From: Zhongshania sp. | GTDB taxonomy: Bacteria; Pseudomonadota; Gammaproteobacteria; Pseudomonadales; Spongiibacteraceae | Length of the DNA stretch: 64,000 nucleotides | NCBI RefSeq assembly: GCF_029212375.1 | Contig: NZ_JARGNU010000002.1 | Location: 286,260 to 350,259 of the forward strand | Direction of reading: 5' to 3' | Shown here: positions 3,750 to 44,391 of the stretch, in pieces | How the letters are laid out: every line of letters starts with the position of its first letter | Numbering within the stretch: position 1 is the stretch's first letter | The notes under the pieces: model-generated | Database searches by the model: none | What the model was told of the DNA's origin: nothing | What the model saw: only the letters and a program-made list of their open reading frames with translations | Position numbers and translations under genes: made by a program

Positions 3750-4823
3750 ATGAATTTCGATTTTTCTGAAGATCAGCGAATGCTTGCTGATCATGCCCGC
3801 AAATTTCTCTCCGAGAGCTGTGACCCAGAGCGGTTGCGCAGCCATATTGCCAGCGGTGCAGATTACGATGAGGCACTTTGGCAGCAGATGGTCGAGCTTG
3901 GCTGGCCCGCCATTAGCATTGCTGAAGAACAGGGCGGCTTGGGCATGGGTGCTTTGGAGCTGTGTGTGCTCGCCGAAGAGGTAGGTCGTGTACTGGCGCC
4001 AACGCCGTTCTTTAGCACGGTTTGCCTTGGTGCAGAGTTGCTTAAGCGCTGTAGCAATAGCGAGGCTGCTGAACTTTTGGGACAAATTGCCTGCGGCGAA
4101 GCGATTGTGGCGGTAGAGCTGGCTGCAAAGAGTCTCCAAGTCGATGCCGATTTGCTAACCGTCAGCGGATCACTGCCCGCGGTGGCCTATGCGCGCAGCG
4201 CCAATTTTCTGATTACCAGCGCGCTGCTGGATGGCAAGCTAAGTTTGGTGCTGATCGACACTACGGCGACTGGCTATCAAACCCTAGATTTACCCGAGGG
4301 TGTCGATGAGTTGGCCAGTTACCAGCGCGTCTCGCTTGAATCGGTGCCAGCTATCGTTTTGCAAAGTGAGCAGGGTGCTGAGGCGCTAATCGATGTCATT
4401 ACGAATCAAGCCGCGATACTCACCGCCTTTGAACAGCTCGGTGGCGCTGAAGTGGCCTGTTATATGGCCCGGGATTATGTGCTGGAACGCTACGCCTTTG
4501 GTCGCCAAGTGGGTGTTTACCAAGCGGTGAAGCATCGTTTGGCAGACATGATGATCAAGATCGAGCTGGCGCGTTCCAATGCCTATTACGGCGCCTGGGC
4601 AATGTCGGTAGGTGGCAGCGAACTGCCGCTGGCCGCTGCGGTGGCTAGGGTGAGTGCTACCGATGCCTATAATTTTTCTGCGGAAGAAAACCTGCACCTG
4701 CACGGCGGAATTGGTTATACCTGGGAAGCCAATTGCCATTTTTTCTACAAGCGTGCGCGCTTGCTCGCAATGAGTATCGGCAATATCGCCCACTGGTCTA
4801 AGAAGTTACTGGCCGCCGCCTGA
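3750..4823 (+). CDS. Acyl-CoA dehydrogenase, short subunit of a putative heteromeric enzyme
   Basis: A 357-residue member of the acyl-CoA dehydrogenase family. N-terminal (FDFSEDQRML) and C-terminal (HGGIGYTWE, FYKRARLL) signatures are clear. The middle domain lacks the SEPxAGSD and W-T-S motifs that bind FAD and substrate in ordinary members. Its partner 28 bp downstream has them. This split is typical of the alpha2beta2 dehydrogenases of actinobacterial steroid side-chain degradation (FadE26-FadE27 type). ATG 3750 is preceded by GGAGAGA; the in-frame TTG at 3738 is inside that site. It probably desaturates a bulky acyl-CoA together with the next gene product. Confidence 0.88.
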   Translation: MNFDFSEDQRMLADHARKFLSESCDPERLRSHIASGADYDEALWQQMVELGWPAISIAEEQGGLGMGALELCVLAEEVGRVLAPTPFFSTVCLGAELLKRCSNSEAAELLGQIACGEAIVAVELAAKSLQVDADLLTVSGSLPAVAYARSANFLITSALLDGKLSLVLIDTTATGYQTLDLPEGVDELASYQRVSLESVPAIVLQSEQGAEALIDVITNQAAILTAFEQLGGAEVACYMARDYVLERYAFGRQVGVYQAVKHRLADMMIKIELARSNAYYGAWAMSVGGSELPLAAAVARVSATDAYNFSAEENLHLHGGIGYTWEANCHFFYKRARLLAMSIGNIAHWSKKLLAAA

Positions 4824-6089: not shown

Positions 6090-7124
6090 TTAGGACTGAT
6101 AATCGGACGGGCTGGCGCCGGTCCACTGCTTAAACGCGCGGCTAAAGGAGCGCGGCTCAGCAAAGCCCAGCTGTTCGGCGACCTCGGCAACGGACATTTT
6201 CTGAAAGCGCAGTTTGTCGATGGCGGTGTCGCAGCGCACATCGTTGAGAATACGCTGAAAGCTGGTGCCCTCGCTGTTCAAGTGACGATGCAGGGTAGCG
6301 GTGGTTAAGTGCAGGTGTTGGGCTACAGTATTAAGGCTCGGTATGGCTTCGCCTTGGCGCAGGGCGTTGAAGACCAGTGAGCGTACCTTTGACGAGACTT
6401 GGACTTGCTCGTCGGGCCAGTGGACTACGCCGCTTTGTATTGCCGTTTGGCGCAGGGCCAGCCATTCATTGCGGCTGCGCAGAATGGGTAGAGAAAGGTA
6501 TTTGCGGCTAAATACCACCGCGTTGCGTTTGCAGCCACTTTGCCAGTCGCCACGCAGTTGATATACGAGGCGCTCGGGATTTACGTTTTCGGAAAACGCG
6601 AGCTCAACGGCTTTAACAGGAATAAGCTGGTCGATCATCCAGCTGAAAACGCGATGTAAATAATTGAGCCAATAATCTACTAAGAAGTGGCCGGGATCTC
6701 GCTGGGAGTCTAAGCCGGCGAGCACCAGCGCGATATCGTCGCCCTCGTCGCTGAGGCTCATGCGCATATCGTCGCAGACCAGCCGCATAAAGCGCAGGCT
6801 TTGGGTCATGGCTGCGCCAAGGGTGTCATTACCTAGGGCGATTTCGACCATCATGCTGGTTACGCCGGGTTTTACAGGATGCTCTCTCAACCCAAAAAAC
6901 TCATCTTGCAGCGGCGGCAATAAGCTGGTCAGCAGGTTTATGTACTGGCTGCGTGAGACGTCGCCGTCGCCCTCTATGGCGGCGGGGTTCATGCCTGCGT
7001 CGCAAAGCAAGGCATTGGTGTCTAGGCCGTGATTGATTGCCCCAGCCAGCAGCCGACTCACTGCCATACGGTAGTTAAATTCGGCTTGCAGCTCGAGTGG
7101 TGGATCTTGTTCAGTCGCGTGCAT
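6090..7124 (-). CDS. AraC-family transcriptional regulator
   Basis: 344 residues. The N-terminal two thirds match the arabinose-binding-like domain of the OruR/ArgR-like AraC subgroup. The C-terminal 100 residues carry two helix-turn-helix segments, with VAEVAEQLGFAEPRSFSRAF as the highly conserved second one. Subgroup members often activate catabolic operons for lipids or amino-acid derivatives. It sits between two acyl-CoA dehydrogenase pairs and is divergent from the flavoprotein at 7223, so control of the 7223-14276 operon is likely. The effector is unknown. Confidence 0.9.
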   Translation of the reverse strand: MHATEQDPPLELQAEFNYRMAVSRLLAGAINHGLDTNALLCDAGMNPAAIEGDGDVSRSQYINLLTSLLPPLQDEFFGLREHPVKPGVTSMMVEIALGNDTLGAAMTQSLRFMRLVCDDMRMSLSDEGDDIALVLAGLDSQRDPGHFLVDYWLNYLHRVFSWMIDQLIPVKAVELAFSENVNPERLVYQLRGDWQSGCKRNAVVFSRKYLSLPILRSRNEWLALRQTAIQSGVVHWPDEQVQVSSKVRSLVFNALRQGEAIPSLNTVAQHLHLTTATLHRHLNSEGTSFQRILNDVRCDTAIDKLRFQKMSVAEVAEQLGFAEPRSFSRAFKQWTGASPSDYQS

Positions 7125-9523: not shown

Positions 9524-10636
9524 ATGGATTTTAATTTAACCGAATTTCAGCGCGAAATATTAGATCTTAGCGACAAACTGCTCAGCGACTATTGCACGCA
9601 AGCTAGGCTGCGCAAGGCCGAGGACTTAGGCTATTTCGACGCGGAGTTATGGCAGCAAATGGCCGACGCCGGGCTGCTGGGCTTGGCTCTGCCGGAGTCG
9701 GTTGGCGGTATGGCCCAAGACTTTGAAACCCTAACGGTATTGCTGGAGCAGCTGGGGCGCCATGTCGCGCCGGTGCCAGCACTGCCGGTATTGGCAACGG
9801 CAAGTTTGCCCTTGCTGCCCTATGCCAATGTGGCCTGTGTGCAGGCGGCGTTACGGGCCGTATGTTCTGGCGAGGGAATGCTAACTGCCGCGTTGGCAGA
9901 TTCCGGTTTCACCAATTCCTCGGCCTCGGACACCCTCGCTGAAAACAGAGACGGCAAGCTGTATTTATACGGTGAGAAAAGCCGTGTGCCTGCGGGTATG
10001 CAAGCCAGTGCTTGTTGGACCGTGGCGCAAGATGGCGGCGACGTTGGCATTTATCTTTTTGCCTGTGAACAAGTGGGCGTAAAGCGTCGTGCGCAAGAAA
10101 CCACCAATGGTCAGAGCCTTGCGCATTTCAGTTTAGATGGTGCCCAAGCGGAATTGCTGGTCAAAGGTGCTGATGCAGACGCTATGCTCACCGCTGCGCG
10201 CCACTACCAACAAGCGGCAACGGCGGCACTGGCGACCGGCCTCTGCGAAGGCATGCTTGCCTTAGCCAGCGAACATTGCAGCGAGCGTAAGCAGTTTGGG
10301 CGCCCACTCGGAAGTTTTCAGGCGGTCGCCCACCAATTAGCCGACTGCTACATAGATAAAGCGTGTTTGCGGGTGGCGAGTGAGCAGGCGGCGTGCCAGC
10401 TTCGCGATGGTATTGACGCTGAAGAGAGTGCATTGGTCGCCGCCTATTGGACTACTGAGGCCCTGCACCGTATTAGTCATCGCAGCCAGCAAGTGCACGG
10501 CGGCACCGGCGTAGACCGTGACTACCCGCTGTTTCGCTACTGCCTTTGGGCGCGCCAATTAGAAATGGATTTAGGTGGGCAAAATAGTGTGCTCGCCGCC
10601 CTTGGTAGCAATATTGCGGCTGCACACGCGGCTTAG
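9524..10636 (+). CDS. Acyl-CoA dehydrogenase, short subunit (second pair)
   Basis: 370 residues of the acyl-CoA dehydrogenase family. N- and C-terminal helical domains are recognisable (FNLTEFQREI; VHGGTGVDRDYPLFRY). The SEPxAGSD/WTS middle-domain motifs are absent. The ATG follows the long-subunit gene by 13 bp with GGAGTAG upstream. It likely forms an alpha2beta2 complex with that product, in which the short subunit contributes structure or part of the active site. Acting alone as a normal dehydrogenase is unlikely because the FAD-contact motifs are missing. Confidence 0.87.
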   Translation: MDFNLTEFQREILDLSDKLLSDYCTQARLRKAEDLGYFDAELWQQMADAGLLGLALPESVGGMAQDFETLTVLLEQLGRHVAPVPALPVLATASLPLLPYANVACVQAALRAVCSGEGMLTAALADSGFTNSSASDTLAENRDGKLYLYGEKSRVPAGMQASACWTVAQDGGDVGIYLFACEQVGVKRRAQETTNGQSLAHFSLDGAQAELLVKGADADAMLTAARHYQQAATAALATGLCEGMLALASEHCSERKQFGRPLGSFQAVAHQLADCYIDKACLRVASEQAACQLRDGIDAEESALVAAYWTTEALHRISHRSQQVHGGTGVDRDYPLFRYCLWARQLEMDLGGQNSVLAALGSNIAAAHAA

Positions 10637-32976: not shown

Positions 32977-33549
32977 AAATGCCGTCATGCCGAACTTTGT
33001 GCGCTGTCATGCTGAACCTCCTACAGAGTTATTCTGAGCTCCCTCTATCGTCATTCTGAACTCCCTACATCGTCATTCTGAACTTGATTCAGAATCCAAT
33101 ACCACTGAACTAGTTCACAGTGCCCCCACCAGATGCCGGATCACGTCCGGCATGACGGCTTCGTTGTAAATGGCATCATGCCAAACTTTGTGCGCTGTCA
33201 TGCTGAACCTCCTACAGAGTTATTCTGAGCTCCCTCTATCGTCATTCTGAACTCCCTACATCGTCATTCTGAACTTGATTCAGAATCCAATACCACTGAA
33301 CTAGTTCACAGTGCCCCCACCAGATGCCGGATCACGTCCGGCATGACGGCTTCGTTGTAAATGGCATCATGCCAAACTTTGTGCGCTGTCATGCTGAACC
33401 TCCTACAGAGTTATTCTGAGCTCCCTCTATCGTCATTCTGAACTCCCTACATCGTCATTCTGAACTTGATTCAGAATCCAATACCACTGAACTAGTTCAC
33501 AGTGCCCCCACCAGATGCCGGATCAAGTCCGGCATGACGGCTTCGTTGT
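32977..33549. repeat. Three tandem copies of a 191-bp unit built from REP-like hairpins
   Basis: Copies start at 32977, 33168 and 33359, exactly 191 bp apart. By eye they differ by only a few bases near the start of copy 1 and in one loop base (TCACG in copies 1-2, TCAAG in copy 3). Each unit holds several CGTCATTCTGAA starts, a hairpin with arms ATTCTGAA/TTCAGAAT, a GAACTAGTTC palindrome and a hairpin with arms ATGCCGGA/TCCGGCAT ending ATGACGG. The near-identity points to recent tandem amplification. It is non-coding. Confidence 0.9.
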
Positions 33550-34030
33550 AGAGTCCGGCATGACGGTTTTGTCGTAGAGATTGTCATTCCTGAGTTCGCT
33601 ACGCCGTCATTCTGAACTTCCTATACGGTCTGTGAACTCCCTACATCGTCATTCTGAACTTGATTCAGAATCCATATACCACCGAACTAGCTCACGGTGC
33701 CTCCGCCAGATGCCGGATCAAGTCCGGCATGACGGCTTCGTTGTAGAGGCTGTCATTCCTGAATTCGCTACGCGTTCATTCCGAACTTCTTATACGGTCT
33801 TATGAACTCCCGCTATCGTCATTCTGAACTCGATTCAGAATCCATATACCACCGAACTAGTTCACAGTGGCTCCACCAGTTACCGGATCAAGTCCGGTAT
33901 GACGGCTTCGTTGTAGAGAGTGTCATTCTGAACTTTCTACATCGTCATTCTGAACTTGATTCAGAATCCATATACCACTGAACTAGTTCACGGTGCCCCT
34001 CCAGATACCCACTAAAGTTCGGCATGACGG
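33550..34030. repeat. Diverged copies of the REP-like composite element
   Basis: At least three further copies follow the tandem array, each with a CGTCATTCTGAA start, the CTTGA-loop hairpin, a central palindrome and the TCAAG-loop hairpin ending in ATGACGG. In the copy at 33881-33899 the second stem is TACCGGA/TCCGGTA, so a G-C pair became A-T on both sides, which preserves pairing. Between 34031 and 34237 I see no gene; a 57-bp stretch at 34082-34138 recurs at 46480-46538. Confidence 0.85.
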
Positions 34031-34237
34031 CATCACACTCGTGAAAGACGCGTATTCACCTGCGTCGCTACACTGGTGGCGGAATAAGCTGTATATTTTT
34101 TCGTCGCTAAGACTTTTGCTCGGCTTGCGGCTGAGTGTCGATACTATTATTTAAATTTAATGGGTTGCGCTAGTTGTTGTGGTGCTTCTTCACGGCAAGC
34201 CGTGCGTGCTTGAGATCCAATTGTTATGCATTCAGAG

Positions 34238-34293
34238 TGGGGACGACCCCATCTCTCAAAAATCACTAGGCGACGGCCCCTATAATTGAGAGG
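34238..34293 (+). promoter_or_regulatory. Guanidine-II (mini-ykkC) riboswitch
   Basis: Two small hairpins with ACGR tetraloops sit in tandem: TGGGG-ACGA-CCCCA (34238-34251) and TAGGCG-ACGG-CCCCTA (34267-34282). The second has one C-C mismatch where a G-C pair is expected. The linker CTCTCAA (34253-34259) is exactly complementary to TTGAGAG (34286-34292), which contains the ribosome-binding site 7 nt before the SMR gene start. This is the layout of guanidine-II riboswitches, in which guanidine binding stabilises the hairpins and frees the Shine-Dalgarno. The gene it controls is a Gdx/SugE homologue, the expected partner, but is now broken. Confidence 0.82.
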
Positions 34294-34298
34294 TGTTT

Positions 34299-34615
34299 AT
34301 GAACTGGTTTATTCTTTTCGTGGCAGGATAGCTTGAGATTGGCTGGGCAATTGGGCTGAAATATACCGAGAGCTTTACTAAATTTTGGCCGACGCTAGGT
34401 ACCGTGTTTGCGCTAGTTGCGAGCGCTTTTTGCTAAGTATCGCAATGAGAACCTTTCCCGTTGGTACAGCCTACGCTGTATGGGTAGGCATTGGCGCTAT
34501 TGGAACCGCAATATTGGGTATCATACTTTTCAATGAGTCCACTGACGTACTAAAAATCGTTAGCCTTGGTTTTATTTTTGTGGGAATCGTCGGCCTTAAA
34601 TTGGCGCATGCCTGA
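34299..34615 (+). pseudogene. Degenerate SMR-family guanidinium exporter (Gdx/SugE)
   Basis: The translated sequence follows E. coli SugE along its length: MNWFILFVAG, then an in-frame TAG at codon 11, then LEIGWAIGLKYT. After a frameshift near 34430 in a T5 run (one T appears lost) it continues [16 protein letters not shown] and ends IVGLKLAHA. The [13 protein letters not shown] motif is diagnostic of the Gdx subgroup, which exports guanidinium in exchange for protons. Two independent lesions mean no functional protein, and the riboswitch upstream also has a damaged stem. Between 34616 and 34729 nothing was recognised. Confidence 0.85.
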
Positions 34616-34729
34616 CAAAGCGCTGCGCACGGATAAATGACGGGTCGCGAAGTGAATGCAAGCAATTAGAAAATGAGTATTGAAATGAGTGTTGTCAGTT
34701 TCAGTAGAATGCTAAGCGGGAACTGCTTT

Positions 34730-43786: not shown

Positions 43787-43884
43787 AGCACGTAATACTT
43801 GTAACAAGGCGGTGTTGTCGCCTTTGGCTGGGGCCGCCATTCGGTTGGCGCTCCATGCAAGCCCCAAACCGCGGAGTACGTGCT
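43787..43884. repeat. Imperfect long palindrome next to yoeB, possibly attC-like
   Basis: AGCACGTA (43787-43794) and TACGTGCT (43877-43884) bound a 98-bp imperfect inverted structure with inner arms such as GGGGC/GCCCC. It ends 4 nt from the yoeB stop codon. Size, imperfect symmetry and a TAACAAGGCGG motif recall integron cassette recombination sites, and toxin-antitoxin cassettes are common in chromosomal integrons. A matching GTTRRRY core was not found and no integrase is present, so a transcription terminator is an alternative. Confidence 0.35.
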
Positions 43885-43888
43885 TAGC

Positions 43889-44143
43889 TCAGTAGTGATA
43901 CCGTAGTTGCGCAATAAGAATGGAGTCTTGAAGAATTTTATAAACAATTCGATGCTCGTCGTTAATTCGCCGAGACCAATACCCAGAAAGGGCGTGCTTC
44001 AAAGGTTCAGGTTTGCCAATCCCCTCAAATGCTTCTCTCTGAATATCCCTGATAAGTAGATTAATACGTTTGAGCATCTGCTTATCAGTCTTTTGCCAGT
44101 ATAGGTAATCTTCCCATGCCTTCTCTGCAAAAATTAATTTCAC
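43889..44143 (-). CDS. yoeB: Toxin YoeB (Txe/YoeB family mRNA interferase)
   Basis: 84 residues, the same length as E. coli YoeB and collinear with it. The catalytic residues known for YoeB are all in place: Glu46 (GKPEPLK), Arg65 (EHRIVY), His83 and Tyr84 at the C-terminus (RYHY). The protein cuts mRNA at the ribosomal A site. Its ATG overlaps the antitoxin gene by 4 bp, and the antitoxin is first in the operon. It is complete and probably active. Confidence 0.95.
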   Translation of the reverse strand: MKLIFAEKAWEDYLYWQKTDKQMLKRINLLIRDIQREAFEGIGKPEPLKHALSGYWSRRINDEHRIVYKILQDSILIAQLRYHY

Positions 44144-44391
44144 TCAATCAATTCCTTTGCTTGACCTTTTCCATCTTCAAGTTCGGCAATAGACTCAATC
44201 AAGCGCCGTGTATTCTTAGGGCTGCGCAACAAGTAGGCGGTTTCTTCCAAGGCTTGGTAGTCGGCCATCGAAATCATCACCACAGCGCCTTCGCCTTTGC
44301 GAGTGATAGCCACAGGGGCGTGGTCGTTACATACCTGCTCCATAGTCTTGGCAAGGTTACTTCGCGCGGCAGTATAGCTTATACTTTCCAT
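44140..44391 (-). CDS. yefM: Antitoxin YefM (Phd/YefM family)
   Basis: 83 residues. The N-terminal Phd/YefM DNA-binding domain is clear (SYTAARSNLAKTMEQV; VAITRKGEGAVVMISMADY), and the C-terminal acidic tail should wrap the toxin. It neutralises YoeB and autorepresses the operon. Candidate operator sequences with the TGTACA core lie just upstream at 44403-44426. The 4-bp overlap with yoeB indicates translational coupling. Confidence 0.95.
   Translation of the reverse strand: MESISYTAARSNLAKTMEQVCNDHAPVAITRKGEGAVVMISMADYQALEETAYLLRSPKNTRRLIESIAELEDGKGQAKELIE

Follow-up and report, generated by a model that had tools for sequence, protein, structure and literature searches.

A guanidine-II riboswitch and a broken gdx gene at an attI-like site in Zhongshania sp.: a probable fossil integron cassette

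The riboswitch and the interrupted gdx gene

The window, a stretch of 64,000 nucleotides of a Zhongshania sp. genome (assembly GCF_029212375.1, contig NZ_JARGNU010000002.1, forward-strand positions 286,260 to 350,259), contains a Guanidine-II riboswitch aptamer (34235-34281, plus strand) followed directly by a broken gene of the gdx/sugE type. An Rfam scan of the whole window gave only one match above any gathering score, RF01068, at 32.2 bits against a cut-off of 32. The gathering score is passed, but the match is marginal (E = 0.013 over the whole window and 3.6e-5 over a 181-base stretch). A chance match is nevertheless unlikely, given the gdx gene directly behind it and the seven related units that align with it. 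The two hairpins have the loops ACGA and ACGG, so that the guanidine-II assignment with two ACGR loops, put forward in the preliminary description, is confirmed.

Stem P1 is formed by 34237-34242/34247-34252 and stem P2 by 34269-34272/34277-34280. The six inner pairs of P1 are kept in 8/8 aligned units, and the window has a G-C pair at one P1 position where six of the eight units have A-U and one has G-U; as judged by this alignment, G-C is a compensatory change. P2 includes a non-standard C.C pair at 34271/34278, which occurs in the window alone among the eight units. The loss of a P2 pair noted earlier is therefore real, the stems next to the loops are not fully paired, and on its sequence the window copy is best described as a damaged member of the Guanidine-II class. 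The linker at 34252-34259 (plus strand) is complementary to the Shine-Dalgarno stretch TTGAGAGG at 34286-34293 of the same strand, again as first described. Over the eight units, 85.7% of the cells of this helix are paired, as compared with 39.7-60.9% when the two segments are slid against each other. The linker/Shine-Dalgarno helix is the translational platform of the guanidine-II class.

The gdx gene starts at ATG 34299. Its N-terminal frame (34299-34436, plus strand) is interrupted by an amber TAG at codon 11 (34329-34331) and finishes at TAA 34434-34436, just 3' of a T5 run (34427-34431). The C-terminal part (34427-34615, plus strand) lies in a different frame, which is open from 34385 to 34615 and gdx-like from residue 14-15 onward. 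In a profile search with each piece alone, PF00893 matched the C-terminal piece (76 aa) with 57.7 bits and 34 aa of the N-terminal piece with 21.3 bits, below the cut-off of 23.7; in the whole-genome search both pieces exceeded that cut-off. The best NCBIfam match of both pieces is SugE NF008512, with 82 bits (C-terminal) and 27.2 bits (N-terminal), scored separately against a cut-off of 126 bits that is set for the whole protein. Hence, the amber codon, the frame change at the T5 run and the Gdx/SugE identity reported previously all hold: the sequence is of the SMR family and closest to SugE, and an uninterrupted frame of ~105 codons is absent. Presumably no exporter is made from this gene.

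Base changes were assigned to branches by comparison with the intact copies of the same-genus genome G002 and of Paraglaciecola; the N-terminal and C-terminal pieces were counted separately, over 42 and 58 codons, with stop-codon changes included. The window branch has 19 synonymous and 7 non-synonymous changes, as compared with 10/8 for G002 and 14/9 for Paraglaciecola. With these small numbers, the window branch appears no looser than the two branches of intact copies, which indicates constraint over most of its length. Decay seems hardly visible besides the two lesions in the gene and one mismatch in the RNA. These counts and the compensatory change in P1 make the loss of gdx look recent.

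The attI-like site and the absent integrase

The unit formed by the riboswitch and gdx is preceded by an attI-type site on the plus strand (34147-34229). When 18 genomes of the genus were searched at the DNA level, 34147-34227 matched G003:C74:1013-1089 (78%) and G002:C1:299802-299888 (75%); for 34152-34227 the match to G003 had E 2e-10 in one search and 1.9e-8 in another. Contig C74 of G003 holds an integron integrase, IntI (383 bits; start codon at 1330), and the matched stretch lies 241-317 nt before the IntI start, where attI is expected. The window stretch was therefore read as attI. Its likeness closes with GTTATGC (34223-34229) at the left edge of the unit, which has six of the seven letters of a GTTRRRY-type core. 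The G002 counterpart (locus L206) is a second solo attI-like site, with no IntI match nearby.

A further block at 34074-34126 appears to be a remnant of the intI side of an integron platform. It is 73.6% identical to G003 1255-1307 (E 0.009), and parts of it and adjoining bases resemble G002 L206 (34091-34130, 82.5%, E 6e-5) and G007 (34091-34122, 81%, E 0.031). The two window blocks are collinear with G003, the second being nearer IntI; in G007 both are matched weakly (E 0.031 each) beside the IntI of that genome. By alignment, the window lacks most of the sequence that separates the two blocks. The expected place of the integrase gene is occupied by an array of tandem and interspersed repeats (32977-34054), with three 191-nt copies (98%) and a 126-nt family. 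The array family also occurs on several other contigs of the genome of the window and in G002 and G011.

No IntI match was found in the window, and in no locus examined does the unit adjoin an intact IntI. A promoter scan between 34030 and the unit gave no sigma-70-like promoter, nothing being above chance. The genome to which the window belongs (G000: 3,804,105 bases, 29 contigs, completeness 100) has a complete IntI on contig C24 that shares only 45% identity with the G003 type. That IntI is followed (L160/L161) by an acetyltransferase-like ORF and a minus-strand stretch that we take to resemble a reverse transcriptase of group II introns. Of 92 genomes, 50 have IntI above the TIGR02249 cut-off; within the genus 14 of 18 do, G000 included. 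The copy of G005 has an internal TGA, and G002, G009, G014 and G017 have no IntI above that cut-off.

Related units and attC-like elements

Guanidine-II matches were found in 28 of 96 genomes and SMR matches in 59 of 96. An intact riboswitch-gdx unit, which the preliminary description had proposed to look for in related genomes, is present in G002 and shares 84% DNA identity with the window. Similarity of the window to its best relatives is limited to the riboswitch and gdx: it extends over 34219-34617 in Paraglaciecola arctica (82%), 34223-34610 in Aestuariicella (74%) and 34236-34608 in G002 (84%). The flanks gave no match to these best relatives save one stretch 16 kb off. Close copies were found by DNA search only in G000 and G002 among the 18 same-genus genomes, at unrelated places, and the unit is present in 9 of the 390 genomes of the order, G000 and G002 included. 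Three of the seven loci beyond these two repeat earlier ones (L223 and L010 are the same place in G079; L221 and L225 resemble L067 and L066). A blastn search of 72,556 plasmid records gave no match to 34200-34640 at E <= 1e-5.

The likeness between the G002 and Paraglaciecola copies begins exactly at the core, G|TAGGC. According to the rule given in the available text of PMC8876359, this is where crossover takes place in a GTTRRRY core. The Nitrotoga and Nitrosomonas copies likewise start at TAGGC or TTAGGC; the Neptuniibacter, Psychromonas and G079 copies have no such core at the left edge. At the right edge, several units finish in RYYYAAC-like letters at the stop codon, which is weak evidence alone, as TAA belongs to the motif itself. 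In the copy of G194 (L224, about 1500-1890) gdx is frame-broken too, into the other of the two possible frames, and by eye the riboswitch has one substitution in each stem. This unit looks like a second decaying copy, in an apparent cassette array.

Motif scans of integron flanks for attC gave few candidates under strict settings and several under looser ones, and both were replaced by a covariance model, R1. R1 was built from seven attC-like elements of six same-genus genomes (G015, G005 with two, G004, G010, G016 and G017), and G002 was left out. The training elements of G015 and G005 share a contig with IntI and lie no more than about 3 kb from it. In every one of the 18 same-genus genomes R1 matched one or more times at E <= 0.01, and nine of the 14 IntI-bearing genomes have a match within 2 kb of IntI on the array side (those of G005 and G015 include model sequences). 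On these data R1 behaves as an attC detector.

A scan of 16 loci (214,551 bases) with R1 gave five matches, at the G002 and Nitrotoga loci and at another place of the window. The attC of G002 (L143:7327-7424) scored 71.9 bits (E 3.6e-17), and the riboswitch match starts 6 bases behind it. The ORF end that precedes this attC (L143 upstream of 7327) was also seen, by eye, before attC-like starts in G016 (L171, C29) and G003 (L170, C113), and the attC may go with a gene that several species have retained. In the Nitrotoga locus L065, R1 matched 4611-4681 (23.2 bits), 10125-10147 (12.1 bits, E 2.5) and 6184-6267 (15.6 bits); the last starts at the gdx stop codon and has E 0.26 in the 16-locus scan or 1 in a scan of 80 loci. 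The latter scan, of 80 named gdx loci, gave four matches, two in Nitrotoga near gdx and two in L133 far from gdx. Among seven further unit loci only one was matched, that of G194 (L224 531-608, 17 bits, E 0.012). At L224, moreover, a strong hairpin with attC-like ends lies just before the unit (z -2.84; one of 200 shuffles equalled it), and further small ORFs lie nearby. An attC thus accompanies the unit strongly in G002 and more weakly in Nitrotoga L065 and G194 L224. R1 was silent at the Paraglaciecola, Aestuariicella, Neptuniibacter and Psychromonas loci; since R1 is a same-genus model, its misses outside the genus weigh little.

Folding gave a mixed picture. Behind gdx, a stable attC fold is favoured in Paraglaciecola (z -2.31), less so in G002 (z -1.76) and not in Nitrotoga (z -0.89). 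The upstream attC of G002 folds only at z -1.12 despite its clear model score, and a candidate attC just before the Nitrotoga unit has no fold support (z +1.42). An anchored attC score behind gdx reached p < 0.05 in one of nine units of the clade and in one of 16 other gdx loci, and so does not separate the two sets.

Behind gdx of the window, R1 gave no match and the fold score is z +1.68. A possible left half of an attC, GCCTGACAAAGCGCTG (34610-34625, plus strand), agrees by eye in 14 of 16 letters with the start of the Nitrotoga attC, again with no R1 match; 3' of gdx a right half was not found and no stable fold is present. With no attC behind the gene and a likeness confined to a 16-base half-site, the window copy is called cassette-derived rather than a working cassette. 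The R1 match elsewhere in the window is an attC-like remnant at 43799-43882 (19.1 bits, E 0.026). Beside it lies a minus-strand ORF pair (43889-44391) that we take to resemble a YoeB/YefM toxin-antitoxin system, and the region 43799-44391 is perhaps a second stranded cassette.

Origin of the unit and guanidine handling in the genus

The riboswitch and gdx at this locus very likely constitute a fossil of one integron cassette that was placed at attI, has lost its integrase and was inactivated recently. This reading builds on the riboswitch match, the broken gene, the attI likeness, the attC before the intact G002 copy and the unrelated flanks. The cassette would have extended from a few bases before P1 to the gdx stop codon, so that riboswitch and gene moved together, and an integrase would have inserted it at G|TT of attI (34223). 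In the intact state, transcription would have come from outside, either from an integron promoter or by read-through from host sequence; translational control would have been brought by the cassette itself. By analogy with other members of the riboswitch family, the linker would cover the Shine-Dalgarno sequence without guanidinium; with guanidinium, P1 and P2 would dock by their ACGR loops, freeing the Shine-Dalgarno sequence so that the exporter is made. Later, the integrase gene would have been lost, with the downstream attC left at most half present, and gdx would have been hit by the nonsense codon and the frame change.

It is rather unlikely, though still the best of the alternatives, that the unit is mobile by homologous or illegitimate recombination or by another element, and that the attI and attC likenesses lie next to it through coincidence or a tendency of integron regions to attract insertions. 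Both the missing attC behind gdx of the window and the silence of R1 at the Paraglaciecola, Aestuariicella, Neptuniibacter and Psychromonas loci are in line with such mobility, and Slipski et al. 2020 are said, by the title of their paper, to describe riboswitch-associated gdx on proteobacterial plasmids. However, the attC of G002 ends only 6 bases before the riboswitch, the attI likeness of the window stops at the edge of the unit, an attC match in Nitrotoga begins at the gdx stop codon, and no plasmid was matched. If both are mobile units, the plasmid-borne pairs differ from that of the window in their carrier, which is here an integron site.

A gene that is intact in the organism, with one or both lesions due to sequencing error or read through by recoding, is very improbable: constraint is still visible and one lesion lies at a T5 run, but there are two separate lesions and one of them is an in-frame TAG. 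A conserved programmed frameshift was also considered and is unlikely, as the broken G194 copy shifts to the other of the two frames. Slow decay of a vertically inherited riboswitch-gdx operon, to which the broken gene, the lost P2 pair and a riboswitch score barely above the cut-off might point, is the least credible reading, since close copies occupy unrelated places in only two of 18 same-genus genomes and selection on the window branch is not relaxed. The unrelated flanks, and an attI likeness that stops at the unit edge, led to the rejection of a resident operon in decay. Thus, of the decaying riboswitch-gene pair in the preliminary description, the broken gene and the damage to P2 stand; in place of a resident operon there is what looks like an integron cassette at attI, and the loss of gdx looks recent.

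The same description took the locus as a sign that the lineage recently carried guanidine export. The exporter is indeed dead, and whole-genome searches of G000 gave no further SMR match by profile and no further Guanidine-II match at E <= 0.001 by covariance model. A second, sub-threshold Guanidine-II element (24.9 bits; L216 1448-1488, G000:C3) nevertheless lies directly 5' of an open carboxylase homologue, whose frame of 1224 aa is 79% identical to the homologue of G008. Guanidine-II elements also precede the carboxylase homologue in the same-genus genomes G008, G012 and G004 (in G004 by adjoining coordinates), and in G007 the riboswitch precedes a different gdx. The variants with a short P1, namely the element on G000:C3 and those of G008 and G012, score under the Rfam cut-off. 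From the riboswitch and knowledge of the family, the carboxylase homologues would be guanidine rather than urea carboxylases. With this gene behind the second element, a route for assimilation likely remains although the exporter is lost, and guanidine handling has probably not been lost altogether in the lineage.

With guanidine-II (mini-ykkC) RNAs before gdx/sugE, the window unit shares the two ACGR hairpins, the anti-Shine-Dalgarno linker and the gdx gene directly downstream; it differs in the lost P2 pair, the broken gdx and the attI-type site, as does the G002 unit in its position behind an attC. SMR genes such as qacE and its relatives also move as integron cassettes (available text of PMC8448097 and PMC9574504), but those are of the Qac type, and PMC8448097, in the part available, contrasts integron-borne Qac with chromosomally inherited Gdx; the cassette-derived unit of the window consists of Gdx and a riboswitch of its own. 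A riboswitch close to a frameshifted guanidine gene has precedents: guanidine riboswitches have already been noted in comammox bacteria in the neighbourhood of extensively frameshifted genes, which are likely pseudogenes of guanidine metabolism (PMC11410670). In that case, however, the genes encode a permease and guanidinase, and the word integron is absent from the available text of that paper.

The decay itself is thus ordinary, and the new part is the carriage of a riboswitch by a cassette. A literature search, with most subscription papers outside its scope, yielded no description of an integron cassette that contains a metabolite riboswitch. The aminoglycoside riboswitch once proposed for class 1 integrons would likewise be an RNA control where attI and cassette join, but it has been refuted as a riboswitch, as far as the available text of PMC9410878 and PMC8876359 goes; the RNA of the window, in contrast, belongs to a validated class. 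After the refutation of the aminoglycoside claim, an example from such a class would demonstrate that riboswitches can be carried by cassettes. Probably, a genuine metabolite riboswitch can form the 5' end of an integron cassette, and guanidine export spreads in this way among proteobacterial lineages, which suggests a route besides plasmids for the spread of guanidinium exporters. Integron cassettes are generally promoterless genes that are expressed from the promoter of the platform (available text of PMC11014356). If the cassette reading is true, a captured gene that lacks a promoter brings along a translation switch controlled by a ligand, and a riboswitch acting on translation would give the cassette its own regulation wherever it is inserted.
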